From assembly GCF_001303895.1 (NCBI RefSeq), contig NZ_LJSD01000011.1, positions 248,001-312,000 on the forward strand: 64,000 bases of DNA. Reading direction: 5' to 3'. Source of the DNA: Mesorhizobium sp. 1M-11 (GTDB taxonomy: Bacteria; Pseudomonadota; Alphaproteobacteria; Rhizobiales; Rhizobiaceae). Of the stretch, positions 6,636-30,208 are shown piece by piece. Numbering within the stretch: position 1 is the stretch's first letter; every line of letters starts with the position of its first letter. The position numbers and the translations under genes are program-made. The notes under the pieces were generated by a model that saw only the letters and a program-made list of their open reading frames with translations, had not been told where the DNA came from and did not search any database.

Positions 6636-6684
6636 GATCAATCTTTTTATCCGTGACAAGTGATCCTCCAAATCTCGGTCGCAG

Positions 6685-8316: not shown

Positions 8317-8416
8317 TGCGATATCTTCAGCACGCGCGAATGGGAGTGAATGCAGAGCGAGCGTAGTTTGGCACCCGATACTGCTCCCCAATCCCTACCG
8401 GAGCGCCGCTTTCTCA

Positions 8417-12984: not shown

Positions 12985-13160
12985 CAGATCCTCCGCATCC
13001 AGGCGATGCATGGCCAAAGCACTGGCCAGAGCGCCGACACAAAGCAGAGCGCGCCGACTTCGATCGAGTTGACCGGCTTGCCCGCAAACCGCATCAGGTA
13101 GCGCGCGAACAGGACGGCTCCGGCCATCCAGCCCGCAATCAGGATTAAAGGGGTGATCAC
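12984..13160 (-). CDS. Small membrane protein
   Basis: A 58-residue product with two hydrophobic segments (ITPLILIAGWMAGAVLFARYL and ALCFVSALWPVLWPCIAW), so a small inner-membrane protein. The start is taken as GTG: it overlaps the helicase stop as GTGA and has GGGAGGAA at proper distance, whereas the ATG five codons upstream lies inside that ribosome site. Function unknown. Confidence 0.7.
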   Translation of the reverse strand: MITPLILIAGWMAGAVLFARYLMRFAGKPVNSIEVGALCFVSALWPVLWPCIAWMRRI

Positions 13161-16178: not shown

Positions 16179-16291
16179 GACACGTCCCCGTTGCGATGCG
16201 GCTCACAAGGAGCATGCTTACCACCGCCGAAGACGTATTCCTTCCATGGCGTCCAGCACCGGCTTTGCGATTTCTGAGGTTGATCTGACAT
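16175..16291 (-). CDS. Tiny phage protein, 38 residues
   Basis: Reads MSDQPQKSQSRCWTPWKEYV and ends HRNGDVS. The ATG has a strong ribosome site, AGGAGGGG, eight bases upstream, and the stop overlaps the primase start as ATGA, so translation is well supported. Two Trp and two Cys and a basic composition are the only notable points. Function unknown. Confidence 0.72.
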   Translation of the reverse strand: MSDQPQKSQSRCWTPWKEYVFGGGKHAPCEPHRNGDVS

Positions 16292-16340
16292 TTGGGGGTC
16301 CCCTCCTGCTTTCGTCTTCCGAGGTTGATACGGTCACTGT

Positions 16341-17186
16341 TCACTCCCTTGCTCCGTCGCTAGTCCGATCGATCCGTGGAGTGGACCCAATACTCGGAGC
16401 GGATCGATCGGACGGGCTGTGAGTCTCCCCTTCGGCTTTAGCTTTGAGGATGGCCATTCCGATCATTTGCGGGATGAACGGCACGACGGCGTTCCCGATC
16501 GCCTTCAATCGGGCAACGTCCAGTTTGCTCGGTACCCCATCAACCACTCGCTCCACGGCGGGTTCGGAACTCCACCAAGCCAACGATCCAGGGACACGCT
16601 CTTGTTGGTCTCGAAGTTCAGTGCCTCCGTCGATGTGCATGTTCGACGGATATGGTCTGAGGAAGTGGGTGTCGGGACCGAGTGCGTCGCTTTTCCGGTG
16701 AGCGATGATCCAGAGACGGTCACGACGGTGAGGCGCGCCAACATGGGCAGCGGGGATACAATGCCACTCCGCATCGTACCCGATCTCATCGAGTGCAATG
16801 AGCAGGTGCTCCAGTCCGCGAGACCGAATTTTTGAGACATTTTCGAGGATGAGGTATCGCGGATTGATCTCTTCAGCGAGCCTAATGACTTCCCGCCAGA
16901 GGCCTGTTCTGGAGCCGTCAATTCCGGCTCCTCGTCCTGCAATTGACACGTCTTGGCAGGGGAAGCCTCCGCAGATAACATCGACATTGATGTTGTCGCG
17001 TTCCAGGACGTCCGCGCTGATGGATCTGATGTCATGATAGCAAGGAACCTTTGGCCAGTGCCGCTGTAGGATGCTGCGCGGGAACGCGTCGATTTCACAG
17101 AAGGCGACGGTCTCGAAGCCTCCGGTTCGTTCCAGTCCAAGACTGAAGCCGCCAACGCCGCTGAAGAGGTCGAGAACCTTCATCAT
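16341..17186 (-). CDS. dcm: C5-cytosine DNA methyltransferase (Dcm type)
   Basis: Transfers a methyl group to C5 of cytosine. The 281-residue enzyme has motif I MKVLDLFSGVGGFSLGLE, the catalytic motif GGFPCQDVS (Cys about 77), ENV in LILENVSKIRSRG at about 115, RRDRLWIIAH (motif VIII) and a final LKAIGNAVVPFIPQMIG (motif X). The target recognition domain is short, so the site cannot be predicted. No restriction endonuclease adjoins it, so anti-restriction use by the phage is likely. Its 5' side now faces a divergent transposase gene. Confidence 0.93.
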   Translation of the reverse strand: MMKVLDLFSGVGGFSLGLERTGGFETVAFCEIDAFPRSILQRHWPKVPCYHDIRSISADVLERDNINVDVICGGFPCQDVSIAGRGAGIDGSRTGLWREVIRLAEEINPRYLILENVSKIRSRGLEHLLIALDEIGYDAEWHCIPAAHVGAPHRRDRLWIIAHRKSDALGPDTHFLRPYPSNMHIDGGTELRDQQERVPGSLAWWSSEPAVERVVDGVPSKLDVARLKAIGNAVVPFIPQMIGMAILKAKAEGETHSPSDRSAPSIGSTPRIDRTSDGARE

Positions 17187-17248
17187 GCCGCCACCATTAA
17201 TTGACTGGTGACGCGGTCCCGGTAATGTCCGGCCCGAAGGGGACGGGC

Positions 17249-18577
17249 ATGAAGGGTTTGATTAGTTTCGATCTTCTTCGACTGGACGGCTACATGGCCA
17301 TGGAAGTCGAAGAGCTTGAGGGGAAGTTGTACGTTGACACCCAGGCATTGAAGCCGGAGAAACCGCGGTGCGCCTGCGATGCTCCTGACGTGGTGAAGCA
17401 TGGGAAGCGCGTCGTTCACTTCCGTGACTTCCCGATCCAGCGGCAGGAAACGTACCTGCGCATCACGCGCCAGCGCTATCGATGCCGAAGCTGTGCTTCC
17501 ATCCTCCTTGAGCGCCTGCCGTTCATCGACGACGACAAGAGGATGACCGCCCGATTTCGAGACCAACTCTTCAAGGATGGCATCGAGATGAAGTTCAGGT
17601 TGGGCGGCGACATCAACGGGGTGAAAGAAAGCCTGGTGCGTCGGACGTTCAAGGAAGAGGCCCGGAAGCGTTTTCAGACCTACACCTTCGATCTTCCCCG
17701 CATTCTCGGTATGGACGAGAAGGTGATTGGCGGCTCCCCTCGATTTGTCATCGGCGACGTTGAGAACCGCCTGCTGCTGGACATCACCGAGTCCCGCAAG
17801 AAGGAGGACTTGGTCCCCTACTTCAAGCAGTGGAGCCACGCCGACCGGATGAAGGTCGAGGTCATCACTCAGGACATGTACTGGGGCTACAAGACGCTCA
17901 ATGAGCAATACTTCAAGGCCTCGACGATCGTAATCGATCGCTTCCACGTTGTCCGATACGCCGACTGGGCGGTGAGCAAGGTCCGCCAGAAAATTCAGGA
18001 GGGCGCGATCAATGAGGACCGCATCGAGCTGAAGGACAAGATGGAGCTGTTCCAGACCCGCCCGCAGAAGCTCAAGGACGAAGAGAAGGCGGAGATGGAG
18101 CGGTTGTTCAAAAAGCATCCGAAGATCGAGGAAGCCTACACGCTCAAGGAATGGTTCTACAAAATCTACCACTGCAAAACGCGGGAAGAAGCTGAGAACG
18201 ATTATGAGGCGTGGCGACGACTGATCCCCGACGACATGAAGGGACCATTCAGCAAGATATTTTCCTTCATGCGGGAGAGCCGCTGGCGACGGTACATCTT
18301 CAACTACTTCGATCACCGCTACACGAACGGATACATCGAAGGCCTGAACGGGCTTCTGGACGAAATTAACCGAGGCGGTCGCGGCTACGATCTCGAAACG
18401 CTTCGATACAAGGCGCTTCTGAAGTACGGCGACGTGAAGCGGCTGATCGACATCTACACCTACGATCTGTGGAAGATCAGCCCGGAAGAACGGGAGGAAA
18501 TTTTGGGTACGTCGATTGGTCATGGGATCAGCCTGTCAACCTTTGAGCGCGATTTGAGAGCAGGTGCGTTCTGGTGA
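17249..18577 (+). CDS. ISL3-family transposase
   Basis: DDE transposase of 442 residues. A zinc-binding N-terminus has CAC at 41-43 and CRSC at 79-82. The catalytic triad is visible as D156 (LGMDEKVIGG), D209 (ITQDMYWGY, followed by VIDRFHVV) and E364 (TNGYIEGLNGLLDEINRGGRGY), as in ISL3 elements. The ATG has GAAGGGGA seven bases before it. It is on the opposite strand to the surrounding phage operon and its composition is less GC-rich in feel (many Lys, Glu, Ile codons), which suggests an insertion. I could not find matching terminal inverted repeats or a target duplication, so the ends of an element are not defined. Confidence 0.88.
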   Translation: MKGLISFDLLRLDGYMAMEVEELEGKLYVDTQALKPEKPRCACDAPDVVKHGKRVVHFRDFPIQRQETYLRITRQRYRCRSCASILLERLPFIDDDKRMTARFRDQLFKDGIEMKFRLGGDINGVKESLVRRTFKEEARKRFQTYTFDLPRILGMDEKVIGGSPRFVIGDVENRLLLDITESRKKEDLVPYFKQWSHADRMKVEVITQDMYWGYKTLNEQYFKASTIVIDRFHVVRYADWAVSKVRQKIQEGAINEDRIELKDKMELFQTRPQKLKDEEKAEMERLFKKHPKIEEAYTLKEWFYKIYHCKTREEAENDYEAWRRLIPDDMKGPFSKIFSFMRESRWRRYIFNYFDHRYTNGYIEGLNGLLDEINRGGRGYDLETLRYKALLKYGDVKRLIDIYTYDLWKISPEEREEILGTSIGHGISLSTFERDLRAGAFW

Positions 18578-19059
18578 GTTCCAACCGTGAAAGTCGGATA
18601 GCCCCAGCACCAGTTGCCGTCACGGTTGCGAAGGAAACCCCACCTGCGGTTTGAATTGCCGCGCCAAACCAGCGTGATGATTTTCCGGCTGTCGGCCTGC
18701 GGGATGTTGCCGACCACGTCGCCTGCATAACGACCGATGACCCGGTGGCAATGCGTTGCGGGCCGATAAGATAGACGGAAGGCGCGAACCACTTGGCGGT
18801 GAAGTTTGTATTTCTCCGGCCCGCAAAAAAGCGCCTCCATGTAGCAAAGGCCCTTGGTGTCAGGCGTGGCTACTTCCTCGACATACGAAGTCAGCGGAAA
18901 CGTCCAGAAATCCCAAGGGTGATCATGGCAATCCGGATCGATATCGCCACGATGAAAGACGTGAAGGCGAAGGCGCCCGAACCAAAACCGCGTGAGGTAA
19001 GGGCTCGTATGTTCGCCATGACCATATATCGTCTGCCGACCCAAGAGCCCCCAGCTCAT
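18520..19059 (-). CDS. Phage protein of unknown function, possibly with altered C-terminus
   Basis: A 179-residue protein. The His/Asp-rich segment LRLHVFHRGDIDPDCHDHPWDFWTF and later PATHCHRVIG look like a cupin-type metal site, known from phage hypothetical proteins of this type. After RWGFLRNRDGNWCW the tail reads GYPTFTVGTHQNAPALKS, which looks unlike the rest and overlaps the transposase 3' end on the other strand, so the C-terminus may have been replaced when the transposase gene arrived. It is coupled to the upstream gene by an ATGA overlap. Confidence 0.68.
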   Translation of the reverse strand: MSWGLLGRQTIYGHGEHTSPYLTRFWFGRLRLHVFHRGDIDPDCHDHPWDFWTFPLTSYVEEVATPDTKGLCYMEALFCGPEKYKLHRQVVRAFRLSYRPATHCHRVIGRYAGDVVGNIPQADSRKIITLVWRGNSNRRWGFLRNRDGNWCWGYPTFTVGTHQNAPALKSRSKVDRLIP

Positions 19060-19553
19060 GCCGCGCCCCCGTTCACAACCGTGAACCCGCCAACGGCCTT
19101 CACCTGGGCGAGCGACTTGCGGTGATCGCTGAGAACGCGCTCGAGATGCGCCATCAGCTTGTCCTGCTCGTTCGCCTCGGCGGGCGTGATCTGGCCATCG
19201 GAGAGATGCAGGGCGGCGGCGGTCATCACTTCGCCGACCTGGCGAACGACATCGGCATAGGAGCGCATGACGCCGTTTGCCGCCTCGACCGCGCCGTCAG
19301 GATCGGCCAGCCGGCGATTGTTCAGCGACGCCATCGCGGAGGTGACGAGCGGCATGCCGCACTCGCCTTCGAGCGCCAGCGCCACATGCACCGGCATCAT
19401 GTCGGGCTGCGCGCCATTGTTCCACCGGCCGACCTGTGCGTCGGAGAAATCGACGATTACAGCGGCACGCTGGATGCCGCCGCACGCAGCGATCAGGTCA
19501 CGCTGCGCGGCCTTGATGCGGTAGTGTCGCTGGTCTGCATTGGCGACGGTCAT
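19056..19553 (-). CDS. Putative phage transcriptional regulator (CII-like layout)
   Basis: A 165-residue protein with an N-terminal helix-turn-helix-like region, YRIKAAQRDLIAACGGIQRAAVIVDFSDAQVGRWNN, followed by helices and an end VKAVGGFTVVNGGAA. Proteins of this shape at the head of phage early operons are often regulators. It is the first gene of the minus-strand replication operon, directly downstream of an operator-like pair. Function is not proven. Confidence 0.65.
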   Translation of the reverse strand: MTVANADQRHYRIKAAQRDLIAACGGIQRAAVIVDFSDAQVGRWNNGAQPDMMPVHVALALEGECGMPLVTSAMASLNNRRLADPDGAVEAANGVMRSYADVVRQVGEVMTAAALHLSDGQITPAEANEQDKLMAHLERVLSDHRKSLAQVKAVGGFTVVNGGAA

Positions 19554-19581
19554 GGGCGAAAGCTCCCAAAGGGCAAAAGCT

Positions 19582-19624
19582 TTCTCCTCACGAGAAAAGC
19601 GGACGCTTTTTCTCGTGGTGAGAA
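19582..19624. promoter_or_regulatory. Pair of inverted operator-like sites between divergent genes
   Basis: Two 15-base sites, TTCTCCTCACGAGAA (19582) and TTCTCGTGGTGAGAA (19610), are each near-palindromic and are inverted copies of each other, 28 bases apart. Together they form a larger dyad with arms CACGAGAAAAGCG and CGCTTTTTCTCGTG. They lie between the minus replication operon and a plus-strand gene, so they probably bind a regulator that controls one or both. The sequence differs from the ACGGAA operators of the repressor. Confidence 0.6.
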
Positions 19625-19749
19625 CGGTTCGAAAGGTGTGTTGTCGTCAGGTCAGAACGTTACGGAGGTCCGCATGCAGTTCCTTTCAAATCTCGTTGCA
19701 AGCCTTCGTCGGACTTGCTCGAATGGTCGGGTCCATCGGGAGGAAACAG

Positions 19750-20058
19750 ATGAAAGCCGAAGAACGGATCGAACTCGAAGCGTTGACGGAAGAGCTGCTC
19801 GCACGGAATGGGGTACTGGAAGCCATGCAGTCGCAGGTTGTCCGTCTCCTTGCCAGCCTTACCGACGATCCGGATGCCAGCGTCCGGCTGACGATGGCCG
19901 ATGTTCGAACCAATCTTCATCTTGGCCTGGAGAAAGCGAACAAGACCGGCGATCCGTCGCAACAGCGCATTGCGCGACGATCTCTGGAACATGTGAACGA
20001 CGTCGAAGCTCGTCTGCTGGAGATGAGACGGCACGAAGGTGGTGGCGGGACGCAATAG
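19750..20058 (+). CDS. Hypothetical coiled-coil phage protein
   Basis: A 102-residue, Glu/Leu-rich helical protein (MKAEERIELEALTEELLARN onward), predicted largely as coiled coil. The ATG is preceded by GGGAGG at good spacing. It is divergent from the minus replication operon. Function unknown. Confidence 0.62.
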   Translation: MKAEERIELEALTEELLARNGVLEAMQSQVVRLLASLTDDPDASVRLTMADVRTNLHLGLEKANKTGDPSQQRIARRSLEHVNDVEARLLEMRRHEGGGGTQ

Positions 20059-20165
20059 GCCTGCCCGATCTTCCGGTTTCCGTCCGAGGATTGGACGAAA
20101 ATCCACATCGATCTCATACCGATACCGGTGGAGCACAGCCACCGGAATGGGGAACTGACGGCCAG

Positions 20166-20468
20166 TCATTCCGCCGCCTCCTGCGCAGGAAGCCGCAAGG
20201 CGGCGACGTGGTGATGGTCAAGGGTGGCGGACCGCTTAGGCTCGGGCCGCGTGATGGTGTCGGGCCACGCCAAGAGTGCGGGCCAATTATCGGAGAACCA
20301 CTGCATGGCAGCTTCGAAAGTCGAGGTTGTTACATCGGCGCGACCTTCTGCAATTGCACCCAATGTTGCACCGCGATTGAGAACGATTGTTGAGATACGC
20401 GCACGGCTGAGGCCGACCGCGTCGGCATAGACGTCACCCACCACGACAAGCTGCTGTTTCAGGTTCAT
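20166..20468 (-). CDS. Probable Cro-like regulator
   Basis: A 100-residue product starting MNLKQQLVVVGDVYADAVGLSRARISTIV, a helix-turn-helix-like pattern, with TSTFEAAMQWFSDNWP behind it. It is divergent from the repressor gene with only 86 bases between starts, the usual repressor/Cro arrangement, and the gap contains three operator copies. There is no ribosome site before the ATG; a promoter predicted in the gap would give a nearly leaderless message. Confidence 0.65.
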   Translation of the reverse strand: MNLKQQLVVVGDVYADAVGLSRARISTIVLNRGATLGAIAEGRADVTTSTFEAAMQWFSDNWPALLAWPDTITRPEPKRSATLDHHHVAALRLPAQEAAE

Positions 20469-20554
20469 GCGACATGGATACGGAACTTTTTCCTTATCGT
20501 CAACGGATTGTTTTCCGCGATACAGAAAGTCGATTTGCGGATAAAATTCCTCAC
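20469..20554. promoter_or_regulatory. Divergent repressor/Cro promoters with three operators
   Basis: Three related 16-base sites: ACGGAACTTTTTCCTT (20480), ACGGATTGTTTTCCGC (20503) and GCGGATAAAATTCCTC (20537). On the minus strand TTGACG (20498-20503) and TATCCA (20475-20480) are 17 bases apart and enclose the first operator, giving a Cro-side promoter. On the plus strand TAAAAT at 20542-20547 could be the -10 for the repressor, with transcription starting close to its ATG. Confidence 0.65.
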
Positions 20555-21217
20555 ATGCCAACAGATTTCCAAATGCGCGTGCGAATCCGCATGGCTGAGC
20601 TAAATTTGTCCGCAAGGGCAACTTCCCTGGCGGCCGACCTATCCGCCGACGCGGTGGGCAAGATGCTCAAGGACGGCGCAGGCCTTCCACGTGGCGACAG
20701 CCTAACGGGGCTGGCGCGGGCTCTAAAGACTACGGAGCAATGGCTGATATCAGGCCCGGATGAAAAACAGGCATCCCGAAGCGCGGAAGGCAGCGAGGAA
20801 ACTCTTTCGCCGCCGCATGTTGAAGAGGTTGAGATTAAGGCCACAGCAGCAGGATCGCATGACCACGGGGCGATCCAGCTGTTTGACAATGCTATTGGTT
20901 ACGCTCCCCTACCCCGAGGACTGAAAAAACAAACAGGTGTTTATGCACTGGTTGTGATCAACGATTCGATGTGGCCGGAACATAAGCCAGGCGCAATCCG
21001 TTTTGTGACCCCCGGCATTCCACCTCGCGTCGGCGACAGTGTAGTGATCGAGTTCATCAAAGATCCTGAGATCGGCCCCGAAGCCATGATCGGACACCTC
21101 AACACTCGCGGCGAAACAATCAAACTCGGCAAACTCAATCCGCCTGCGGAGATCGAAATACCCGCAAAGTCGATACTCAAACTGCACCGAATCGCCACAG
21201 ACGCCGAAACGGCATGA
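20555..21217 (+). CDS. Phage repressor, LexA/CI type (S24 peptidase)
   Basis: Keeps the prophage silent by binding the ACGGAA operators. The 220-residue protein has an N-terminal helix-turn-helix region (about residues 8-65) and a C-terminal S24 peptidase domain with the nucleophile in VVINDSMWPEHKPG (S138) and a candidate catalytic Lys around 190. An Ala-Gly pair at about 99-100 in the linker is a plausible self-cleavage site, so the repressor may be inactivated by RecA in the SOS response. The earlier possible start overlaps the operators; no ribosome site precedes the chosen ATG. Confidence 0.88.
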   Translation: MPTDFQMRVRIRMAELNLSARATSLAADLSADAVGKMLKDGAGLPRGDSLTGLARALKTTEQWLISGPDEKQASRSAEGSEETLSPPHVEEVEIKATAAGSHDHGAIQLFDNAIGYAPLPRGLKKQTGVYALVVINDSMWPEHKPGAIRFVTPGIPPRVGDSVVIEFIKDPEIGPEAMIGHLNTRGETIKLGKLNPPAEIEIPAKSILKLHRIATDAETA

Positions 21218-21269
21218 CGGAATAATTTCCGTACTCCGTATTGACACGGAATAATTTCCGTACTTAATT
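21217..21269 (+). promoter_or_regulatory. Early rightward promoter with two identical operators
   Basis: Two copies of ACGGAATAATTTCCGTACT begin at 21217 and 21246, each with perfect arms ACGGAA and TTCCGT. TTGACA (21241-21246) and TTAATT (21264-21269) are 17 bases apart, so the second operator fills the spacer of a sigma-70-type promoter. Repressor bound there would block the plus-strand early operon. The first copy starts in the stop codon of the repressor gene. Confidence 0.7.
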
Positions 21270-21315
21270 CCGCTCCATCGCCCTTGAACCGGTGGAGCTT
21301 CCGAATTTGTCCCGC

Positions 21316-21651
21316 TTACAATTTATTGACATCCTCGTCCGTGACAAATCCGCGACAACCAGCGGACGTTCCGTCGACGACGACTATCGTGTGGGACGCC
21401 ACGCCTCGTTCCACAATAACGGCATGATCGCCCGGCTTGGCTGTGCAGGCGAGAAGCCTGGAAACCAAACTGGGATTGGTTTCGTTGACCTTGGCTTCGA
21501 TAAGTTTGACAGCCTCACGAAAAGCGGCGTGATCACGCCAAACATAAACTGTGCTCATCTCGGCACGGCCAAGTATCACCTGCTCTTCAGCGGCAATAGC
21601 ATTGGACACCCAAGCGACCAATACGATCGCAACGGCTATCGCTCGACGCAT
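21316..21651 (-). CDS. Exported protein in the immunity region
   Basis: A 111-residue protein with a clear signal peptide, MRRAIAVAIVLVAWVSNAIA, cleaved after AIA. The mature part has two Cys (LLACTAKPG and SAGCRGFV) that may form a disulfide. The start has GGGAGGGG just upstream. It lies between repressor and early genes on the strand opposite to the early transcript, like lysogenic-conversion or exclusion genes in other phages. I do not recognise the family. Confidence 0.72.
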   Translation of the reverse strand: MRRAIAVAIVLVAWVSNAIAAEEQVILGRAEMSTVYVWRDHAAFREAVKLIEAKVNETNPSLVSRLLACTAKPGDHAVIVERGVASHTIVVVDGTSAGCRGFVTDEDVNKL

Positions 21652-21666
21652 AAACCCCTCCCACCG

Positions 21667-21816
21667 ATGACCAGCCATCTTGGCACGTTCGAAGGCGAAC
21701 GCAAGCGGAACACGCGCGGCTTCGACGAGGACTGCAGCACGGCGCGCGCCCTTTGCTCGCTGCTGGCCATCACCGTCTTTCTCTACGCCGTATCCCTCTT
21801 CACGAGGGTCTACTGA
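21667..21816 (+). CDS. Possible small membrane protein
   Basis: A 49-residue frame with a charged N-terminal half and a hydrophobic segment ALCSLLAITVFLYAVSLF. Its stop overlaps the next start (TGATG), which suggests coupled translation, but no ribosome site is visible before the ATG. It would be the first gene of the early operon. Confidence 0.4.
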   Translation: MTSHLGTFEGERKRNTRGFDEDCSTARALCSLLAITVFLYAVSLFTRVY

Positions 21817-22054
21817 TGCGCGTGAAAATGTTCGAATGTTCCGCCAGTTCCGGTTCGAGGAACTTCGTCGGCATCTTCCCTCTGGAAGATATCCTATCCG
21901 CAAATGCCAACGCGTTCTCCACCGAAGAACTTGACGAATTCGCTGGTGAGCTGAAGCGAACCGGGCAGGCAAGATTGCCCGGCTTTGTCGGTGCCTATGC
22001 CGAATTCGAGCGGATCGCCCCTTCCACTACACTTTCCACGAGGGTCTACTGATG
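21801..22054 (+). repeat. Duplicated ribosome-site leader
   Basis: CACGAGGGTCTACTGATG occurs at 21801-21818 and again at 22037-22054, both times ending in the start codon of the next gene and containing its GAGGG ribosome site; similarity extends a few bases upstream. Because the copies lie in the 3' ends of two genes, both encoded proteins end in TRVY. This suggests a local duplication or strong selection for the same coupling signal. Confidence 0.75.
21816..22052 (+). CDS. Hypothetical phage early protein, 78 residues
   Basis: Begins MRVKMFECSASSGSRNFVGI; the middle FSTEELDEFAGELKRTGQARLPG is helical and charged. No family recognised. The start has GAGGG eight bases upstream and overlaps the previous stop; its own stop overlaps the following start in the same way. 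Confidence 0.62.
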   Translation: MRVKMFECSASSGSRNFVGIFPLEDILSANANAFSTEELDEFAGELKRTGQARLPGFVGAYAEFERIAPSTTLSTRVY

Positions 22055-22642
22055 CTGACAGAAGTCCGCAGCGGCGGTGCCATGTCGCACCCCATCGCCT
22101 CCAGCCTCGCCGGCAAGCCCGGCCAGCGCGCATCCAATCAGGTCCGGTCCGATCATCCTGCCGGCGAACAGAAGCTGCACCATCGTGCGGTCGAACTCGC
22201 CGACATGCTGCGCGAACTGGCCGGCGTCGACGGCAGCGCCAGCGAAGCCGAGCTGCGCGGCCGCGGCTTCACCATGGCCGAGATCGTCGAGCACCTGCCG
22301 ACCGCCACGCTGATCGTGTCGGAAAGCTGGGTGCGCCGCGTCGATCCGCCCGGCGACCGCGTGCCCGACATCATCACCAAGGCGCTGGCGGCAGCCTCGC
22401 ACAACATGCCGAAGACCGCCGGCCTCGAACCGGAATTCGAGGAGGATGCCGGCATCGCTTGGCGCCGCTATTGCACGGCACGTGCAGCCTGGAAGCTCGA
22501 TCCATGGGTCAGCCAGGGCGAGCGGTGCCTGAAGCTGCTGGAAGCCTTCCTCGTGCGCCTGCCTTTGCTGGAGCGTGAACGCAACCGCGTCGTCTACGCA
22601 CTCGCCGCCAAGCAGAAGACAGAAGGGAGGCCGGTACGATGA
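22052..22642 (+). CDS. Hypothetical phage protein, 196 residues
   Basis: Helical soluble protein. Features seen are AGEQKLHHRAVELADMLRELAG near residues 38-58, a GRGFTMAEIVEHLPTA segment at 70-85 that resembles a small helix-turn-helix, and a C-terminal RCLKLLEAFLVRLPLLERERNR helix. Placed second to third in the early operon with ATGA coupling to the HD hydrolase gene. Function unknown. Confidence 0.72.
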   Translation: MLTEVRSGGAMSHPIASSLAGKPGQRASNQVRSDHPAGEQKLHHRAVELADMLRELAGVDGSASEAELRGRGFTMAEIVEHLPTATLIVSESWVRRVDPPGDRVPDIITKALAAASHNMPKTAGLEPEFEEDAGIAWRRYCTARAAWKLDPWVSQGERCLKLLEAFLVRLPLLERERNRVVYALAAKQKTEGRPVR

Positions 22643-23295
22643 CCGTCCATCCCTCCGGCTTCGTCATCGACGCCAGCAAGCCCTGGCAGCAGACCATCAG
22701 CGGTCGCGCCTTCCCGCTCACCGCCTTCTCGGCGCTCGACATCGACCTCTATGGCGATGTCGCCGAAAGCCTGGCGCGCGTCTGCCGCTTCGGCGGCCAT
22801 GTGCCGGGCAACGCCTATTCGGTTCTCCAGCACAGCGTCGTCGGCGCCGACGCCGCTCTTGAAGAAACCGGCGACGCCCTGCTGGCGGCTTACTTCCTTG
22901 CGCACGATCTGCACGAACACATCATCGGCGACCAGACCACGCCTGTGGTGAACTGGCTTGCCGGCATCGAACTGGAGACGTTCGGCTCGCGCGATATCGT
23001 TCGCACCGTCCTGGCTATCGCCAAATCAAAACTGGACTGGGCGATCTGGCGCGCTGCCGGCTTGCCGCAGCCCGGAAAGACCTACTGGGAGCGCGTCAAG
23101 GAATTTGATGTGCGCATGCTCGCCACCGAGCGGCGCCACCTGTTGATGCAGCCGCCCGCCAGCTGGGGCGACGATGTCGAGAACGCCAAGCCGATCCGGC
23201 TGCGCGGCAAGCTGACGGCATGGCCGGTCGCCAAGGCCGTCGAGGAATTCCGCATCCGGCTTGACCGCCTTTGCCCAAACGCCAGGAGGATGTGA
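22639..23295 (+). CDS. HD-domain phosphohydrolase
   Basis: Metal-dependent hydrolase, probably acting on nucleotides. The HD pattern is clear: His in VLQHSVVGAD (65), His-Asp in YFLAHDLHEHIIGD (89-90) with Glu 93, and a conserved GDQTTPVVNW after it. The 218-residue length and phage context match the YfbR-like proteins annotated in many phages, which cleave 5'-deoxynucleotides. With MazG downstream it suggests control of the nucleotide pool. Confidence 0.85.
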   Translation: MTVHPSGFVIDASKPWQQTISGRAFPLTAFSALDIDLYGDVAESLARVCRFGGHVPGNAYSVLQHSVVGADAALEETGDALLAAYFLAHDLHEHIIGDQTTPVVNWLAGIELETFGSRDIVRTVLAIAKSKLDWAIWRAAGLPQPGKTYWERVKEFDVRMLATERRHLLMQPPASWGDDVENAKPIRLRGKLTAWPVAKAVEEFRIRLDRLCPNARRM

Positions 23296-23708
23296 TGGGT
23301 CAGAACATTGCCCATATCGCCAGGGTTCTCGATGACGAATCGCGCAGGCGTCTGTTTGCGCCGCTGGTCGAGCAATCGGCTGCCGACGATCTGATCGATG
23401 CGCTTGCCGACAAGAAGCTGCCCGAGATTCATGGCAAGGCTCAACTGACGGACAGCGGCACCAAGTTCATGGATATCATGGCCGCGCGCGCTCATGCCCT
23501 CGGTCGTCTGCCGGAGGAGTTTGAACCGGAGTGGGTCAGCAACTTCCGCACCGAGGCCGAACATCTGCAACGCCTCATCGCGGAATGCCGTGTGGATGAA
23601 GCGCTGGCGCAACTGCACGAGATGGTGCCGGGTCCGGATGTCCTGTCGCCGGCCGCAGCCAAGATGCTGGCACAGCTGCATTCCGGGCAGCGGAGCCTGT
23701 CGCTATGA
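23295..23708 (+). CDS. Hypothetical phage protein, 137 residues
   Basis: MGQNIAHIARVLDDESRRRL onward, helical and acidic, without recognised domain. AGGAGG six bases before the ATG fixes the start, which overlaps the previous stop. It is coupled to the beta-clamp gene by an ATGA overlap, so it may belong to the replication set. Confidence 0.72.
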   Translation: MGQNIAHIARVLDDESRRRLFAPLVEQSAADDLIDALADKKLPEIHGKAQLTDSGTKFMDIMAARAHALGRLPEEFEPEWVSNFRTEAEHLQRLIAECRVDEALAQLHEMVPGPDVLSPAAAKMLAQLHSGQRSLSL

Positions 23709-24856
23709 TCAGCTTCAACGTCTCCGCCTTCGCCGAAGCGGCCAAGGCCATCCGCAACGTGCCGGCAGGATCGCGCGACTTCGAGATCCTCGACCACGCC
23801 CTGCTCGACGCCGACAGGACATCGCTGAAGCTGACCATGTCCGATATGGATGTCGAAGCCCGCGTCATCGTCGAGTGCAAGGCGGACGCCGAAGTCAGCA
23901 CCGCGATCCCGCGATCGATCCTCGAATTCTTCATCCTGCACGCCGGCAAGGGCGACGAAACCGGCACGCTGGAATTCGACGAGGATCTGCGCAACGTCAC
24001 CGCCCGCCACGGCAAGGCGCGCCTCACGCAGGCCATCCTGCCGGCCGATATGTTCCCGCATTTGCATGGCAGCGAGGCCAGCTGGTCGATCAAGCTGCTG
24101 GCGCACGAGCTGTGCGACGTGCTGTCCCGCACCGAACGGGCGGTCAGCACCGACCTGAACCGCATCATGCTGCATGGCCCGTTCCTGCACCAGTTCGACG
24201 GCCAGCTGCGCGTCATCGCGGCGGATGGATACCACATCCACATCGTCGACATGGACGATCCCGAGATGACCGGCGAGCTTCCGACACGCGACGGCACGAG
24301 CCTGCCAGGCGTGATCATCCCGCCGAAGACGGTCAAGGAAGTGCTGCGCATCTTTGGCGGCGACGAAAGTGCCATTACCCTTTCCGGCAACGAAAACACG
24401 ATCACGATCGATGCCGAGCGCATCCGCATCGTCTCGAAGCTGATCGACGCCACCTTCTTCGACTATCCCGACAAGCTGCCGGAGCTGAGCGACCTCGTCG
24501 TGCGCGTCTCGGCCGAGGCCATGCAGCGCGCGATCGACGGCCTGCTGGTCGCACCGAAGACGGACGGCAAGGGCAAGCGCGAAGCCATCCGCACCATCAG
24601 GATGACGGTGCGCGACGGCGCCATCGAACTCTTCGGGCGCGGCGACAACGGCGACGCCGAAGACCTGGTGGACGCCGACACCGGCAGCACGCCGGCCGGC
24701 TCGGAGGTCGCCTTTGCCGCCCACTACCTGCGCGACGCGATCGACGCCGCGAGGTCCAAGGAAATCGCCATCCACATGCCGCCCGAAATCGGCCGGTTCT
24801 TCCACGTCGTCGGCAGCGAAGGCGCGACCTTCCTGATCGGCCCACGTCGCTTCTAG
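23705..24856 (+). CDS. dnaN: DNA polymerase III beta sliding clamp homologue
   Basis: Ring-shaped processivity factor that would load the polymerase on phage DNA. At 383 residues it has the three-domain size of bacterial DnaN. Recognisable strands are LSRTERAVSTDLNRIMLHGPFLH, LRVIAADGYHIHIVD, GVIIPPKTVKEVLRIF and SKLIDATFFDYPD, each matching a conserved block of beta clamps. Sequence is divergent from host clamps, so it is phage-borne rather than a recent host copy. No phage polymerase is seen in the window, so the clamp probably works with the host polymerase. Confidence 0.87.
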   Translation: MISFNVSAFAEAAKAIRNVPAGSRDFEILDHALLDADRTSLKLTMSDMDVEARVIVECKADAEVSTAIPRSILEFFILHAGKGDETGTLEFDEDLRNVTARHGKARLTQAILPADMFPHLHGSEASWSIKLLAHELCDVLSRTERAVSTDLNRIMLHGPFLHQFDGQLRVIAADGYHIHIVDMDDPEMTGELPTRDGTSLPGVIIPPKTVKEVLRIFGGDESAITLSGNENTITIDAERIRIVSKLIDATFFDYPDKLPELSDLVVRVSAEAMQRAIDGLLVAPKTDGKGKREAIRTIRMTVRDGAIELFGRGDNGDAEDLVDADTGSTPAGSEVAFAAHYLRDAIDAARSKEIAIHMPPEIGRFFHVVGSEGATFLIGPRRF

Positions 24857-24868
24857 AGGAGTTTTTCC

Positions 24869-25129
24869 ATGTTCGACGAAATCACCGAAACCAGCCAGAC
24901 CGTCGCCGCCGGCCAGCTGCGCAGCCTGATCGAGCGCATCGAGCGGCTGGAGGAAGAAAAGAAGACGATCGGCGACGACATCAAGGATGTCTATGCCGAG
25001 GCCAAGGGCACCGGCTTCGACACCAAGGCTATCCGCGCCATTGTCGCCTTGCGCAAGCAGGATCAGGCCGAACGCCAGGAAGCGGAATCGATCCTCGACC
25101 TCTACAAGGCCGCGATGGGGATGGCCTGA
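24869..25129 (+). CDS. GapR-like DNA-binding protein (DUF2312)
   Basis: An 86-residue homologue of the alphaproteobacterial GapR family, which binds overtwisted DNA ahead of replication. The typical pattern is [22 protein letters not shown] then [29 protein letters not shown], ending in a short helix. GAGGAG stands seven bases before the ATG. In the phage it would help replication of positively supercoiled DNA; that is inferred from the family. Confidence 0.9.
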
Positions 25130-25374
25130 TGCTGAACCATCAGGACCTCAACCGCGCGCTGAAGCTGTTCGAGGAGCGCAAGACCGCCATGGCGATGCGC
25201 TCCCGCCTCGACAGCGAGCCGGTGCGCCTGATGGTCGGCGACGGCGCCACGGCCGGCACTGTCGCGCTTTCTCCCTCCTATCTCGGCGGCATCGTCGGCG
25301 ACGTGAAAGCTTCGCTCGACCAGCAGATCGCCGTCATCAATTCCACCCTGACCGCAATGGGGATCGAACCGTAA
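25129..25374 (+). CDS. Hypothetical phage protein, 81 residues
   Basis: [20 protein letters not shown] onward; a helical N-terminus, a short GDGATAGTVALSPSYLG strand region and a final helix. It overlaps the GapR-like stop and the ssb start (TAATG), so it is translated as part of the replication run. No family recognised. Confidence 0.72.
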   Translation: MLNHQDLNRALKLFEERKTAMAMRSRLDSEPVRLMVGDGATAGTVALSPSYLGGIVGDVKASLDQQIAVINSTLTAMGIEP

Positions 25375-25913
25375 TGGCTGGCTCCGTCAACAAAGTCATT
25401 CTCGTCGGCAACCTCGGCGCCGAGCCGGACATCCGCCGCACCCAACGGACCGATCAGCTCGTCGTGTCGTTCCGCCTCACCACCTCTGAGACCTGGCGCG
25501 ACAAGGAAAGCGGCGAGCGCAAGGAAAAGACCGAGTGGCATACGGTGGTCGTGTTCAACGAGCAGATCGCCAAGGTCGCCGAGCAGTACCTGAAGAAGGG
25601 CATGAAGGTCTATGTCGAGGGCCAGCAGCAGACCCGCAAGTGGACCGGCAACGACGGGATCGAGCGCTACACGACCGAGACCGTCCTGAACCGCTTCCGT
25701 GGCGAATTGCAGATCCTCGACAAGTTGCCGTCGAACCGACCGCCGGAATCCGACAGTCCCGAAAGCTACGGTACGACGCGCGACGCCGATCAACGCCGTC
25801 AGGTCGAGGAGCGCACCCGCAACCAGCAGACCCGTTTCGGTGGCGGCGGCGGCACCTTCGGTAGCCGTGAACTGGATGACGAAATCCCCTTCGCGCCGGA
25901 ATGGAGGGGATGA
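25374..25913 (+). CDS. ssb: Single-stranded DNA-binding protein
   Basis: Protects single-stranded DNA during replication. The 179-residue protein has the OB-fold start SVNKVILVGNLGAEPDIRRT, the WRDKESGERKEKTEWHTVVVF block, a Gly/Gln-rich linker and an acidic tip DDEIPFAPEWRG that binds partner proteins. The start overlaps the previous stop. It belongs to the same operon as the beta clamp and GapR-like genes. Confidence 0.95.
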   Translation: MAGSVNKVILVGNLGAEPDIRRTQRTDQLVVSFRLTTSETWRDKESGERKEKTEWHTVVVFNEQIAKVAEQYLKKGMKVYVEGQQQTRKWTGNDGIERYTTETVLNRFRGELQILDKLPSNRPPESDSPESYGTTRDADQRRQVEERTRNQQTRFGGGGGTFGSRELDDEIPFAPEWRG

Positions 25914-26275
25914 TGAACAACCTTTCCTGGCTCATCTATGCCGCCGAGGTTTCGGAGCGCATTCAAGAGGCCTGCGTTTTCATCACGTTCGTCATAGGCA
26001 TCATTGGCGGTGCGGCGCTTCTGGTCGCTTTTATAGGAACCCTCGCCGAGGGCGGCAAACTTCGATATCCAGTCGTCGCCTTCTTATTCTGGCTGCCGAT
26101 CACGATCCTATCGTTGGGTGGTGCATGGCTCCTGCCATCGTCGAAGACCATCTACATGATCGCCGCATCCGAGGCCGGCGCCCAGGTCGTCACCTCTCCC
26201 GACGCCGTCGAAATGATGGGCGATCTCAAAGCCATCATCAAAAAGCGCCTGAAGGCCGAACTGGAGGGCAAGTGA
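25913..26275 (+). CDS. Membrane protein of unknown function
   Basis: A 120-residue protein with two membrane segments (about 22-45 and 57-78) and a charged cytoplasmic tail MMGDLKAIIKKRLKAELEGK. GGAGGGG lies just upstream, and the start overlaps the ssb stop. Two-segment topology would permit a holin, but the position in the early operon argues against it. Confidence 0.68.
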   Translation: MNNLSWLIYAAEVSERIQEACVFITFVIGIIGGAALLVAFIGTLAEGGKLRYPVVAFLFWLPITILSLGGAWLLPSSKTIYMIAASEAGAQVVTSPDAVEMMGDLKAIIKKRLKAELEGK

Positions 26276-26276
26276 A

Positions 26277-27155
26277 ATGTCTAACGCCCTCACACTGCAC
26301 GCTTTGCAGCAAGCCCATATCGAGCGCCAGAAGGAATGGTGCCCCGATCAGGTTCCAGACCTGTCTTTCCGTGGCAATGAGATGGCCGGCGAGACCGGCG
26401 AAGCTTGCAACGTCATCAAGAAGCTGGAGCGGGAACGCCACGGCTGGCGAGGTTCACGCGCTACCAAGGAGCAGCTGGCCGAGGAATTGGCTGACGTGAT
26501 CCACACGGCCGTCCTTTGCGCGATCACGGCCGGCATCGACATTGAGCCGGCAACAATCGCCAAGTTCAATTCCACTTCCGAGAAAAACGGCCTTTCCTTC
26601 CGCCTCTCGGCACTGGAGCCGATAGAGCCGGAAACCAGCCTGGACGAGCGCATGAAGGCGGCAGGGATGATCCCGCTGTCCGATCTTCTCGCCGGCAAGA
26701 CGCCTCTCGCAAGGTGGATGGCGCACACTGGCGTCCGCGACATGGACAGCTTCGAAGAATGGGTAGCGATGAAGCATCGCGAATTCTTGAGGATGCGTGT
26801 CGAGTACGAACTTGGCGACAAGGACCAGAAAGACGAGCTTTACGAATGGGTGTTCGCCCATGCCGCTGTTTTCGGTGAGGTCGCCGCGAACTTCCGGCAG
26901 GCGCAAGCCTCGGTTCAAACGCCGACGCATCGCCATGTGAAGCGCGGCACGAAATACGTGCTGCTTGGCATCGGTAAGATGCAGGCCGAGCACTGGCGCG
27001 ATATCTCCGTTGACGAAGACGAGACGGCCTTGGTCGATCTGCGTGAAGTCGCCATCTATCGCAGCGTCGATGACGACTCGCTGTGGGCACGTCCTCGCGA
27101 AGAATTCGAGGATGGCCGCTTTGAAGTCCTCTCCCAGCAGGGAGAGCAGAAATGA
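26277..27155 (+). CDS. MazG-like nucleotide pyrophosphohydrolase fused to a DUF1653-like domain
   Basis: The N-terminal 100 residues match all-alpha NTP pyrophosphatases: EMAGETGEACNVIKKLERE (metal-binding Glu 35, 39, 42) and QLAEELADVIHTAVLC (Glu 69, 70, Asp 73). The C-terminal 70 residues (HVKRGTKYVLLGIGKMQAEHW, then DLREVAIYRSVDDDSLWARPREEFEDGRFEVL) look like the small beta domain of DUF1653-type proteins. The middle 110 residues are unassigned. It would break down NTPs or ppGpp-like signals; the attached domain may give specificity. Confidence 0.82.
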   Translation: MSNALTLHALQQAHIERQKEWCPDQVPDLSFRGNEMAGETGEACNVIKKLERERHGWRGSRATKEQLAEELADVIHTAVLCAITAGIDIEPATIAKFNSTSEKNGLSFRLSALEPIEPETSLDERMKAAGMIPLSDLLAGKTPLARWMAHTGVRDMDSFEEWVAMKHREFLRMRVEYELGDKDQKDELYEWVFAHAAVFGEVAANFRQAQASVQTPTHRHVKRGTKYVLLGIGKMQAEHWRDISVDEDETALVDLREVAIYRSVDDDSLWARPREEFEDGRFEVLSQQGEQK

Positions 27156-27382
27156 ACGCCAGTGAGACACACAACCGCCTCGCCGGCATGTTCGTCGACA
27201 CGGTCGCAGGGCAAACCTCCGATCACTCGGAACTGATGGTCGTCATTGAGAGTACCATTCTCGCCACCATGCTTATTTCCCGGCGCGTATATGGCCTTTC
27301 TCCAGAGGGATGCGTCGAGATGGTAGAGATGGCCATCCAGCAAGCCACGGACCGATTCGCCGCGAACAAGGCGAAATCATGA
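27152..27382 (+). CDS. Hypothetical phage protein, 76 residues
   Basis: Acidic helical protein, MNASETHNRLAGMFVDTVAG onward, with ESTILATMLISRRVYGLSPEGCVEMVEMAIQQ in the middle. It overlaps both neighbours by four bases (ATGA). No family recognised. Confidence 0.68.
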   Translation: MNASETHNRLAGMFVDTVAGQTSDHSELMVVIESTILATMLISRRVYGLSPEGCVEMVEMAIQQATDRFAANKAKS

Positions 27383-27771
27383 AGCTCGATCGCCGCGCCG
27401 ACATCGAAGCCAAGATCATGGCCCGCGTCGAAATCGACCCGGTGACCGGTTGTTGGCTGTGGACCGGACCGACATCCGGCAGCACCGGACGCGGCAAGGA
27501 TTATCCGCGCATGTCCTTGGGGGGGCAGACGGTTGCGGTGCATCTCGTCATGTGGACCAACGTGCACGGTTACATCCCCGGCAAGAAGCAACTGGACCAC
27601 AAGTGCCGCAACCGCCGCTGCGTCAATCCGGACCCCGAGCATACCGAGCTTGTCACACAGAAGCGCAACGCCATACGCCGCGAGGAAGCCAATGGCCGGC
27701 GCCGGCCGCAAAAGCGGCGGCGCAAGGCAGGGAAGGCGCTGCGGGTACACGCGGACAAGGGGAATGACTGA
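27379..27771 (+). CDS. HNH endonuclease
   Basis: A 130-residue nuclease. The start of the domain is TGCWLWTGPTSGSTGRGKDYPRM; the metal-binding core is VHLVMWTNVHGYIPG, LDHKCRNRRCVNPDPEHTELVTQKRNA, with the HNH residues in that span, and a Lys/Arg-rich tail follows. Phage HNH proteins cut DNA in homing or in packaging; here it lies in the early operon far from terminase, so homing or defence use is more likely. Confidence 0.88.
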   Translation: MKLDRRADIEAKIMARVEIDPVTGCWLWTGPTSGSTGRGKDYPRMSLGGQTVAVHLVMWTNVHGYIPGKKQLDHKCRNRRCVNPDPEHTELVTQKRNAIRREEANGRRRPQKRRRKAGKALRVHADKGND

Positions 27772-28193
27772 TGCGCGTCCCCGACAACGTCACCGATGAC
27801 ATGCCCCTGCGACTGAGCGTCGCCGCTGCCCTCGCCTTTCCTGATGGAACCATGGGCGCGCACGGCCTTCGCAAGGAACGTGACGCCGGCAGGCTGGTGA
27901 CGGAGTTGATTGCCGGAAAGGAATACGTCACCTTGGCCGCGATCGCCGAGATGAGGAAACTATGCCAAGGACTTCGAAAGGTGCCCGCCTCGTCTGGCGC
28001 GACGAAAGCCGCAAGGCAGACGGATCGCTACGCAACCGCGCCGGCTGGTTCATCCGCGACGGCGCAACCTTCATCAGCGCTTGCGGCGGCACTGGCGACC
28101 GCGAACGCGCTGAAATCGCGCTCGCAGCCCATATCACCGAAAAATACCAGCCGTCGCGAGAGCGCGGCCGTGATCCCGCTTCCGTCAAGATAG
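27771..28193 (+). CDS. xis: Probable excisionase
   Basis: A 140-residue protein starting MRVPDNVTDDMPLRLSVAAA; LAFPDGTMGAHGLRKERDAGRLVTELIAGKEYVTLAAIAEMRKLC is a winged-helix-like recognition region as in rhizobial excisionases. The C-terminal part is Ser/Ala-rich and ends SPKNTSRRESAAVIPLPSR. It directs the integrase to excise the prophage. The last 232 bases overlap the integrase gene in another frame; the recognisable tail argues that the overlap is real and not an overrun. Confidence 0.72.
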   Translation: MRVPDNVTDDMPLRLSVAAALAFPDGTMGAHGLRKERDAGRLVTELIAGKEYVTLAAIAEMRKLCQGLRKVPASSGATKAARQTDRYATAPAGSSATAQPSSALAAALATANALKSRSQPISPKNTSRRESAAVIPLPSR

Positions 28194-29209
28194 CTGACGC
28201 CGTCAACGTCTATCTGACCGACAAAGCCCCAAACCACGAGAAGCCGAAGGAAACCGCCTCCCGTCTCGTGACGGTGCTGGAGTGGTGTGGCGAAAGCACT
28301 TTCGCCGATGTCACCGGAAAGTTCTGCCGTGACTATGCCAAGGCCCACGGCAACGGTGCCGCGGCGCGCCGCCAGCTGGAGGATCTTCGCGCGGCCGTGA
28401 ACTACTACTGGAAAGAAGGCTACGCCACTTCGGCGCCGGCCATCACCCTTCCCGAGAAGCCGGAAGCACGCCAGCGTTGGCTGGATCGCAGCGAGGCCGC
28501 GCGCCTGCTGTGGGCTGCATGGCGAATGCGCCAGACTTGGAAGGGTCAGCCAAGCGACCGCCGCACCGGCCGGCATATCGCCCGCTTCATTCTTGTCGCC
28601 CTGTACAGTGGAACGCGATCGGCCGCGATCTGCGGCGCTGCGATCCGCCCGACCGAGGGCCAGGGCCACGTCGACCTCGATCGCGGTATTTTCTATCGGC
28701 GGGCCGAAGGCGCCAGGCGCACCAAGAAGCGCCAGCCGCCCGTCAAGCTGCCCGATCGCCTGATCGCCCACCTGCGCCGTTGGGCCTCTACACCGCTCGA
28801 AATCAAGACCAAGGGGCGCGGCAAGAGCAAGAACATCGGCCGCATGATCTCGCAGGACTACGTTGTCGAGTGGAACGGCGCCCCCGTTACGTCCGTTAAG
28901 AAGGGTTTCCGCTCGGCCGTCGAGGCTGCCGGCCTCGGCTGGTATGAAGACGACAAGGACGGAAAGCCGGTCTTCAAGACCGATGTGACGCCTCACGTGT
29001 TCCGGCACACCGCCGCGACCTGGTTGATGCAACAGGGCGCCGACGTATGGGCGGCCGCAGGTTTCCTGGGCATGACCGTCGATGTGCTGATCGAGACATA
29101 CGGGCATCATCATCCCGACTTCCAGGCCGACGCTGCCGATGCCATCACGTCGAAAGCGCGCACTCGACGCCTGCCTAAAAACGTTGTGCAACTCAAACGG
29201 AGAGCATGA
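27962..29209 (+). CDS. int: Tyrosine-type phage integrase
   Basis: Catalyses site-specific integration at the proline tRNA gene. The 415-residue protein has an N-terminal arm-type region (residues 1-62), a core-binding domain (about 75-160) and the catalytic domain: Arg 219 in LYSGTRSAAI, His 345 and Arg 348 in HVFRHTAATW, and the nucleophile Tyr 380 in ETYGHHHPDF. It lies just before the attachment site, as expected. The following gene copies its N-terminal region. Confidence 0.95.
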   Translation: MPRTSKGARLVWRDESRKADGSLRNRAGWFIRDGATFISACGGTGDRERAEIALAAHITEKYQPSRERGRDPASVKIADAVNVYLTDKAPNHEKPKETASRLVTVLEWCGESTFADVTGKFCRDYAKAHGNGAAARRQLEDLRAAVNYYWKEGYATSAPAITLPEKPEARQRWLDRSEAARLLWAAWRMRQTWKGQPSDRRTGRHIARFILVALYSGTRSAAICGAAIRPTEGQGHVDLDRGIFYRRAEGARRTKKRQPPVKLPDRLIAHLRRWASTPLEIKTKGRGKSKNIGRMISQDYVVEWNGAPVTSVKKGFRSAVEAAGLGWYEDDKDGKPVFKTDVTPHVFRHTAATWLMQQGADVWAAAGFLGMTVDVLIETYGHHHPDFQADAADAITSKARTRRLPKNVVQLKRRA

Positions 29210-29676
29210 TGGGACGGAAATCACTAGGACCAAGACTGTGGTTTCGGCCTGAGAGAATTCACTCTACGCGAGGCAATCGCGAACCCGGCGTTTGGATTAT
29301 ACGCGACGGCTCGAAGATGATCAGTACCGGATTTGGCAAAGATGAAAGCGCGAAGGCTCAAACAGCGCTAACCGAATATTTGGCTGGTCGCCAGGAACAG
29401 AAATCCTTCTTCGTCTATTTCGTCACAGCGGAAGCCGCTGACTATCCGATTAAGATTGGCATATCCACAAATCGGACACTCAGGTTTCTGTCACTGCAAA
29501 ATGCACTACCCTACGAACTTAAGATCCTCGCCGTCATGCCTACAGATGATCCATTGCTGGAGCGACGCTTGCATCGTCAATTCGCGCATTTGAGGTTGCG
29601 CGGTGAATGGTTTCTGCGTGCGCCCGAACTGCTTGCCTACATTGATACGGCAGCATCTGAAGGACTGGCTGCCTGA
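29209..29676 (+). CDS. Integrase N-terminal-like domain fused to MUG113/GIY-YIG-type nuclease domain
   Basis: Residues 1-60 (GRKSLGPRLWFRPER, REPGVWIIRDGSKMISTGFG, ALTEYLAGR) align closely with the first 62 residues of the neighbouring integrase. Residues 66-148 match the MUG113/T5orf172 branch of GIY-YIG domains: FVYFVTAEAADYPIKIGIS, then RFLSLQNALPYELKIL, LERRLHRQFAHLR and GEWF. The ATG overlaps the integrase stop. It may cut or bind the same arm sites as the integrase. Role unknown; it is the last gene before the attachment site. Confidence 0.85.
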   Translation: MGRKSLGPRLWFRPERIHSTRGNREPGVWIIRDGSKMISTGFGKDESAKAQTALTEYLAGRQEQKSFFVYFVTAEAADYPIKIGISTNRTLRFLSLQNALPYELKILAVMPTDDPLLERRLHRQFAHLRLRGEWFLRAPELLAYIDTAASEGLAA

Positions 29677-29789
29677 CATATCCACGTACCCCACAACTCC
29701 CCACAGATACGGCGGAAATAAAGGTGAACATCAACCGACAGACGCGATAGAAAACCCCGGAAATCTGCGGCTTTCCTCGAACACTCGCC

Positions 29790-29836
29790 CGTTCGGGACG
29801 ATGGGGTCGCAGGTTCGAATCCTGCCACTCCGACCA
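29790..29836 (+). other. Prophage attachment site: 3' part of a tRNA-Pro gene
   Basis: The 47 bases run from the anticodon loop (TTCGGGA, anticodon CGG) through a perfect T-arm GCAGG-TTCGAAT-CCTGC to the acceptor strand CACTCCG, discriminator A and CCA. No 5' half precedes it, so it is not a functional tRNA but the duplicated core left by integration. The complete tRNA-Pro should flank the other prophage end. Confidence 0.88.
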
Positions 29837-30208
29837 GCCTCTCTCTTTCCCGCCTTCCCTGTTTTTCCAGCAAAGACAGCGGGTTAGGCTTTCCGGTAAA
29901 AAGAACGATACGGGAACGTGTGACGCTGGGCGTTCTGCCGTTGTTCACAACGCTCGACTCGGTAGATCCGAAATCTGCGCCGTCATCGCGTGCGGCTTGT
30001 CGCGGACTTGCCACAGTAGTTTCATCCTGGCGAAGATCAGCTTGCAGATCACCTTCGATGCGCGACGATATCCCCGGGATGCTCGACCTCGTCCGTTCGC
30101 AGCGAATCCGACATGTCAGTGCCGACCGCGAGAGCAACATTTCATTGTCGGCGCGGCCGATATCCGATTACCCTCGGCGCTCACAAAGCGGCATCGAGGA
30201 AATGACGC
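29837..30208. other. Non-coding stretch after the attachment site
   Basis: No convincing gene, RNA or repeat seen on either strand. Open frames here read as GC-rich noise. It is the first host DNA beyond the prophage and may hold the promoter of the next gene; no clear -35/-10 pair was found. Confidence 0.5.

Follow-up and report, generated by a model that had tools for sequence, protein, structure and literature searches.

Sequence analysis confirmed the original observation that a gene at the right end of a prophage in Mesorhizobium sp. 1M-11 is predicted to encode an integrase-type N-terminal domain joined to a GIY-YIG-type domain. The gene occupies nucleotides 29206..29676 (+ strand) of the window, the whole 64,000-nucleotide stretch of DNA that was analyzed, and its product has 155 amino acids counted from the second ATG (29209). 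The open reading frame begins with ATGATG (29206/29209) and overlaps the stop codon, at 29209, of the gene for the prophage tyrosine integrase (27962..29209, + strand, 415 amino acids; Phage_integrase, 1.2e-6; phrog_1 integrase, 9.5e-31), which has its own N-terminal domain (27962-28159, + strand). The architecture recurs at the att sites of other elements: the distinct fusions number at least nine, counting this one, and involve three families of integrase N-termini (two on family A, one on family B, and at least six on family C). Tentatively, we propose that the fusion may be an att-directed nuclease whose targets would likely be the attP arms of rival elements that use the same tRNA, a reading drawn from the sequences and from analogy to a known phage nuclease.

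The right part of a 46.6-kb tailed-phage prophage, recognized by its phage genes (terminase, portal, tape measure, and baseplate hub) and its att ends, lies at nucleotides 1..29837 of the window, and the remainder precedes the window (locus L084). The attR repeat is 48 bp long and corresponds to the 3′ end of tRNA-Pro(cgg) (29790..29837, + strand). An identical copy, also at a tRNA-Pro(cgg) 3′ end, is located 46.6 kb upstream (G000:C1 231213-231260), and the inner 31 bases of the repeat are also present in the tRNA-Pro(tgg) of the same genome. The fusion gene is, as had been claimed, the last one before att, with 113 bp between its end and the repeat. A pair of CCCCACA direct repeats is found inside each prophage end, CCCCACAGTTATCCCCACAG at attL (copies at L084 3297 and 3309) and CCCCACAACTCCCCACAG at attR (29689..29706, + strand), and a related element in another genome, G777, has CCCCACAGCTATCCCCACAG at the corresponding place. 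The spacing of the repeats is 10 bp at attR (29689-29706) and 12 bp at attL (L084 3297-3316) and in G777. We infer that these short repeats may be arm-type sites; CCCCAC as an arm motif across family A found no support, its copies being scattered in 46 loci.

Several other genes of the prophage were noted. The first gene inside attL (L084 3274-3825, G000:C1) encodes an SNase domain (Pfam, 3.4e-11), and nuclease-type genes are therefore found at both prophage ends. An HNH_3 endonuclease domain (2.3e-12) is encoded two genes upstream of the integrase (27379-27771), a GapR-like DNA-binding protein (2.9e-35) at 24869-25129, and a transposase-type gene (phrog_5749, 6.5e-89) at 17201-18577 adjoins a DNA methyltransferase gene (16341-17186).

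The integrase-type, or arm-binding-type, N-terminal domain of the fusion comprises residues 1-63 (29209..29397, + strand) and was identified by a profile, conserved residues, and a structural model. When the N-terminus was searched alone with a profile of 10 integrase N-termini, from which the window fusion, its neighbor, and the fusion and integrase of Stappia were excluded, the similarity did not fall to chance, the outcome that the earlier note had named as refuting it (E = 3.6e-20; among 10,000 shuffled versions of the N-terminus the lowest value was 0.12). Direct alignment to the N-terminus of the neighboring integrase gave a score of 77, while 2,000 shuffles had a mean of 24 and a maximum of 46. 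The neighboring integrase N-terminus was also the sole other match in the same genome (33% identity across residues 2-62, E = 0.018), and in 297 genomes of the order other integrase-sized open reading frames matched more closely at their N-termini, with E reaching 7.7e-11 in a single genome. Among 57 N-terminal domain sequences, the window protein included, W29 and A50 are invariant, and R9, L10, I31, D33, T40, G41, and L54, all kept by the window protein, are at least 90% conserved. The two domains were modeled separately because an alignment of the whole protein put the first strand of the nuclease domain in the wrong place. The N-terminal domain model has a beta-beta-beta-alpha arrangement (pLDDT 78).

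This domain was also compared with known families. At a threshold of E = 1, residues 1-64 had no match in Pfam or PHROGs, Arm-DNA-bind_4 matched one of the 57 members, at 0.012, and a search of solved structures by sequence yielded nothing convincing. The structure search returned weak rows of unrelated names, with no integrase among the matches listed. The profile was placed by hhalign on the N-terminus of lambda Int with a probability of 1%, so that arm binding is deduced from the position of the gene and its family. No known arm domain was convincingly matched by the model, which counts against the att-directed nuclease.

The second domain, at residues 68-139 (29410..29625, + strand), was identified by Pfam as MUG113 (4.7e-11, 43.6 bits, cut-off 22.3) and T5orf172 (2.8e-5, 25 bits, cut-off 20), and together with the profile result this established that the pairing of the two domains proposed in the earlier note is real. 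G84, R92, E118, and F135 are invariant across 50 nuclease-domain sequences, and Y70, K82, H122, E133, and W134 are conserved in at least 90% of them. The domain was modeled with a pLDDT of 93. The best Foldseek rows for this model were UPF0213 and Slx1, the strongest having E = 0.056, with none at E = 0.001 or below; we take both proteins to have GIY-YIG folds. The PADLOC family PDC-S57 also matches the nuclease part (residues 68-129, E = 2.4e-5). A second MUG113 domain of the same genome (L094, G000:C23 477586-477852) lies in a 406-amino acid open frame, a size common to many matches in the order.

The second family A fusion, in genome G217, is identical to the protein of Stappia albiluteola F7233. 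The family B fusion (G225), a copy of which is present in another viral contig, shares 24 of 48 N-terminal residues with the adjacent upstream integrase (alignment score 118, against at most 49 in 2,000 shuffles). In family C, the fusion of genome G683 adjoins its integrase, and its protein identified two more full-length relatives, in G1022 and G736 (48-49% identity), among 297 genomes of the family. A scan of viral contigs (at least 80 loci) added the fusion proteins L281, L283, and L284 and a copy identical to that of G1022. The family C members are 37-70% identical to L281 over both domains. Pfam, applied to seven of the nine fusions, detected MUG113 in six (window, G225, G683, G1022, L281, and L283); it found none in L284, whose nuclease domain was matched by an in-house profile only (7e-12), and the nuclease domains of the Stappia and G736 proteins were assigned with the in-house profile.

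Other searches delimited this set. Single-protein scans found no relative of the window protein in genomes and viral contigs, and none of the G683 protein in viral contigs. When viral contigs were scanned with the family A alignment, the match at each of the 11 loci obtained was confined to the N-terminal part. The genome scan with the nuclease alignment gave four loci, one being the Stappia fusion and the other three cyanobacterial, where MUG113 is joined to different N-termini. The G683 fusion had no tblastn match at 1e-3 in phages and plasmids. For the window protein, 100 phage records were obtained, none covering 80% of it (best 40 of 100), and 42 plasmid records, one of which covered 80%; this was a gene on a Nostoc plasmid, located next to a replication gene. 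No integrase was annotated within 4 kb of the Nostoc match or near a Streptomyces plasmid match. Regarding the second refuting condition of the earlier note, MUG113 proteins with no integrase nearby are common, but all nine fusions with an integrase N-terminus are linked to an integrase and an att site.

MUG113 proteins with other N-terminal domains were also observed near integrases. In L067 (7385-7843, − strand, G747:C42), a 152-amino acid protein with an HTH_17-like N-terminus (4.3e-5, below the Pfam cut-off) and MUG113 is encoded directly upstream of a different integrase, and is perhaps an excisionase-side counterpart of the same idea. In L140 (5169-5603, − strand, G683:C26), a MUG113 protein is next to an integrase, with a small protein encoded between them that the small N-terminal domain of the MUG113 protein weakly resembles (13 of 5,000 shuffles reached the score). 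In L145 (5109-5705, − strand, G804:C21), a MUG113 protein whose N-terminus has no assigned family is followed by a small gene, HTH_17-like by eye, and then by the integrase. The L067 and L140 proteins make a wider theme possible.

Eight of the nine fusions lie between an upstream integrase and a tRNA-derived att, from which their ends are 6-140 bp away (window, 113 bp; Stappia, 116; G225, 34; G683, 95; G736, 6; L281, 140; L283, 77; L284, 111), and the ninth, G1022, is just across att. Seven of the eight have their integrase on the same strand as the fusion, with 0-0.7 kb between the two. The integrase of L281, which is known in part, starts near the opposite end of the 39.8-kb contig, and its integrase-fusion order therefore assumes a circular genome. 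One att copy of G1022 lies 1.1 kb beyond the end of the integrase, and the fusion begins 0.7 kb inward of the other copy; on the circle, the two genes would therefore be neighbors across attP. The att sites used are tRNA-Pro, tRNA-Gly, and tRNA-Lys or Lys-like, that of L284 being a tRNA end; matches to a tRNA-Lys probe were 38/46 for G736 and L281, 35/46 for L283, and 31/46 for L284, compared with 22-23 on the other strand.

The integrase that accompanies each fusion was ranked among the integrases of its family by N-terminal similarity to the fusion. The ranks were 66/70 for the window and 8/70 for Stappia in family A, and 7/78 (G683), 42/78 (G1022), 34/78 (L283), 15/78 (L284), 6/79 (G736), and 7/79 (L281) in family C; in the single family B case, G225, the own integrase ranked 1/8. 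The family A and C ranks do not stand out clearly against the rank of a randomly chosen family member; they therefore count against a tight pairing with the own integrase, without proving that rivals are targeted. The N-terminal domain of the window protein is identical to that of its neighbor at 20/63 positions and to those of the three best family A integrases at 29-31 of 62-63. The earlier note had described the fusion N-terminus as a copy of that of the adjacent integrase; membership in the same family was upheld, while a copy was ruled out by the rank of 66/70. Its suggestion that both proteins bind the same sites was weakened, as the fused domain in families A and C is never closest to the own integrase.

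The three integrases closest to the window domain (G945, G956, and G166) each have the same att copy downstream, and tRNA-Pro is a crowded site. Within the 1.2 kb downstream of the integrase at 17 of 46 other family A loci there is a match to at least 25 of 31 bases of the tRNA-Pro 3′ end (two of the 17 at 25 bases and one 1 kb away), and seven more of the 46 carry a whole tRNA-Pro(cgg).

According to the reading that we favor, which takes up the exclusion of rivals at the same att named among the options of the earlier note, the integrase-type domain would bring the protein to arm-type sites beside attP, where the GIY-YIG-type domain would cut. The targets would be rival elements using the same tRNA-Pro site rather than the element itself, because the fused domain is nearer to the integrases of other elements, the best of which are found beside that site. 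The sequences establish the two domains, the residues conserved in the nuclease, the order of integrase, fusion, and att, and the recurrence on three families; DNA binding by the N-terminal domain, nuclease activity, arm sites as targets, and the choice of rivals over self are predictions. Odn, as described in the passages of PMC8263062 that concern it, may be regarded as a tested precedent of the same design. Rival targeting is not proven, since the ranks are not clearly distinct from random ones and the own integrase ranks first in family B. Rivals with related arms may be targets merely through family-wide shared ancestry and a shared site, and the attP of the element itself could be cut too.

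An alternative that we consider unlikely is that the gene encodes a free-standing homing endonuclease and lies next to the recognition site, which the protein would cut in relatives lacking the gene, so that the gene is copied into the integrase-att interval during repair, the exclusion of relatives being a by-product. Phage T5orf172 proteins are described as homing endonucleases with exchangeable domains in the passages of PMC10448857 that deal with them, and the prophage also has the HNH_3 and SNase genes near its ends. The G777 element (L195, G777:C1:1722000-1731500) bears on this alternative in both directions. The fusion gene is absent from this close relative, whose integrase type and arm region are those of the window prophage; a 1.4-kb stretch around the integrase gene, which in G777 is split across two reading frames, has 71% DNA identity, and the arm and att region has 78%. 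However, the slot between integrase and arm/att region is occupied by a different gene, presumably NTN-hydrolase-like, instead of being a bare intact site. The single-protein scans, moreover, gave no close copies, and homing alone leaves unexplained why the fused domain is integrase-derived in several lineages. The G777 arrangement indicates that the fusion is accessory and exchangeable; the placement as accessory cargo proposed in the earlier note thus stands as part of the picture, a close relative having an unrelated gene in the same slot.

The protein could instead control the recombination of its own element, by competing with the integrase at the arms or binding beside it and so setting the balance between integration and excision, its nuclease domain being a regulatory or structural leftover or nicking att DNA. 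The overlap with the integrase gene, the shared domain family, the position at att, and the first rank among eight of the own integrase in family B are consistent with this role. We nonetheless judge it improbable, since in families A and C other integrases match better than the own one and the nuclease residues are conserved. In addition, downstream of the 46 other family A integrases there is no second open reading frame with an integrase N-terminus except integrase fragments, so that those integrases do without such a gene; the G683-type integrase was not among the queries of one integrase-downstream survey.

The fusion gene is rare. It was found in 2/297 genomes of the order with the family A query (the window genome and G217), in 3/297 genomes of the family with the family C query, in 1/28 and 1/87 genomes of the families of G225 and G217, respectively, each the already-known genome, and only in its own genome among 385 of the class. 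In a poorly resolved tree of 51 MUG113 domains (85 columns), the family A pair groups (88/85), family C falls among unfused relatives, and family B is elsewhere. A single origin of all nine nuclease parts was rejected (p-AU 0.0008), which indicates at least two assemblies, or one with domain exchange; grouping A with C (0.16) and C alone (0.35) were both compatible with the data, and the values for B with C and A with B were 0.069 and 0.039. The pN/pS ratios of four pairs, for whole proteins and for each domain, were 0.24-0.69 with synonymous sites near saturation, and therefore showed no sign of decay. That the gene is a neutral remnant, a chance fusion from tandem integration and deletion at the same tRNA carried as functionless cargo at att, is very improbable despite its rarity and the exchangeable slot seen in G777, given these ratios, the conservation of family C over both domains, and the appearance of the layout on several N-terminal families.

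Returning to the att-directed nuclease, a broader claim, which we regard as rather doubtful, is that these proteins are recurrent prophage weapons, assembled at least twice, in which a nuclease equipped with the DNA-binding domain of an integrase destroys the att DNA of elements competing for one tRNA. If a complete attP carrying both arms is required for cutting, the structure of the resident prophage would protect it, its arms being divided between attL and attR, and the state of the att site would then distinguish self from non-self. Temperate phages contest attachment sites by repression or prior occupancy. If the claim is true, this conflict is also fought with a sequence-guided nuclease bearing the recognition domain of the integrase itself. 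The candidate fusions are small, are located by coordinates, and are open to testing with purified protein and att plasmids.

The fusion can be compared with several known systems. It resembles PDC-S57, a PADLOC candidate anti-phage family, in its nuclease part, while its N-terminal domain is outside the match. It resembles tyrosine integrases such as lambda Int in that its N-terminal domain is homologous to 70 family A integrase N-termini, and differs in that a nuclease replaces the catalytic integrase domain. The portions of PMC10448857 on phage T5orf172 proteins describe homing endonucleases with exchangeable DNA-binding domains at the boundaries of genetic exchange, a modular design like that of the window fusion; the domains named there (CapR, DUF723, DUF4397, and RepA_N) are not integrase-type, and the mentions of integrase in those portions concern satellites. 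No description of integrase-domain/T5orf172 fusions was found in the titles and abstract openings of open-licence papers; chimeric T5orf172 nucleases as such are known.

A close parallel is Odn (ICP1 gp88), the Vibrio phage protein in which, according to the same passages of PMC8263062, a T5orf172 nuclease is combined with a RepA_N domain, 42% identical to that of PLE1, and cuts the origin of the satellite; E180 is needed for cutting, which the E180A substitution abolishes. As far as Odn is described in these passages, both proteins combine a T5orf172-type nuclease with a DNA-binding-type domain akin to one by which a mobile element acts on its own DNA. The domain of Odn comes from a replication initiator and that of the window fusion from integrases, and the window fusion, known from sequence alone, is carried by an element with an adjoining integrase of the same family. 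The window fusion has no RepA_N domain (no Pfam family in residues 1-64) and an integrase-type domain instead, and therefore may work like Odn but is not an Odn member. If the proposed function is correct, the principle of Odn, by which the DNA-binding domain of a rival is turned against that rival, would be extended from replication origins to integration sites.
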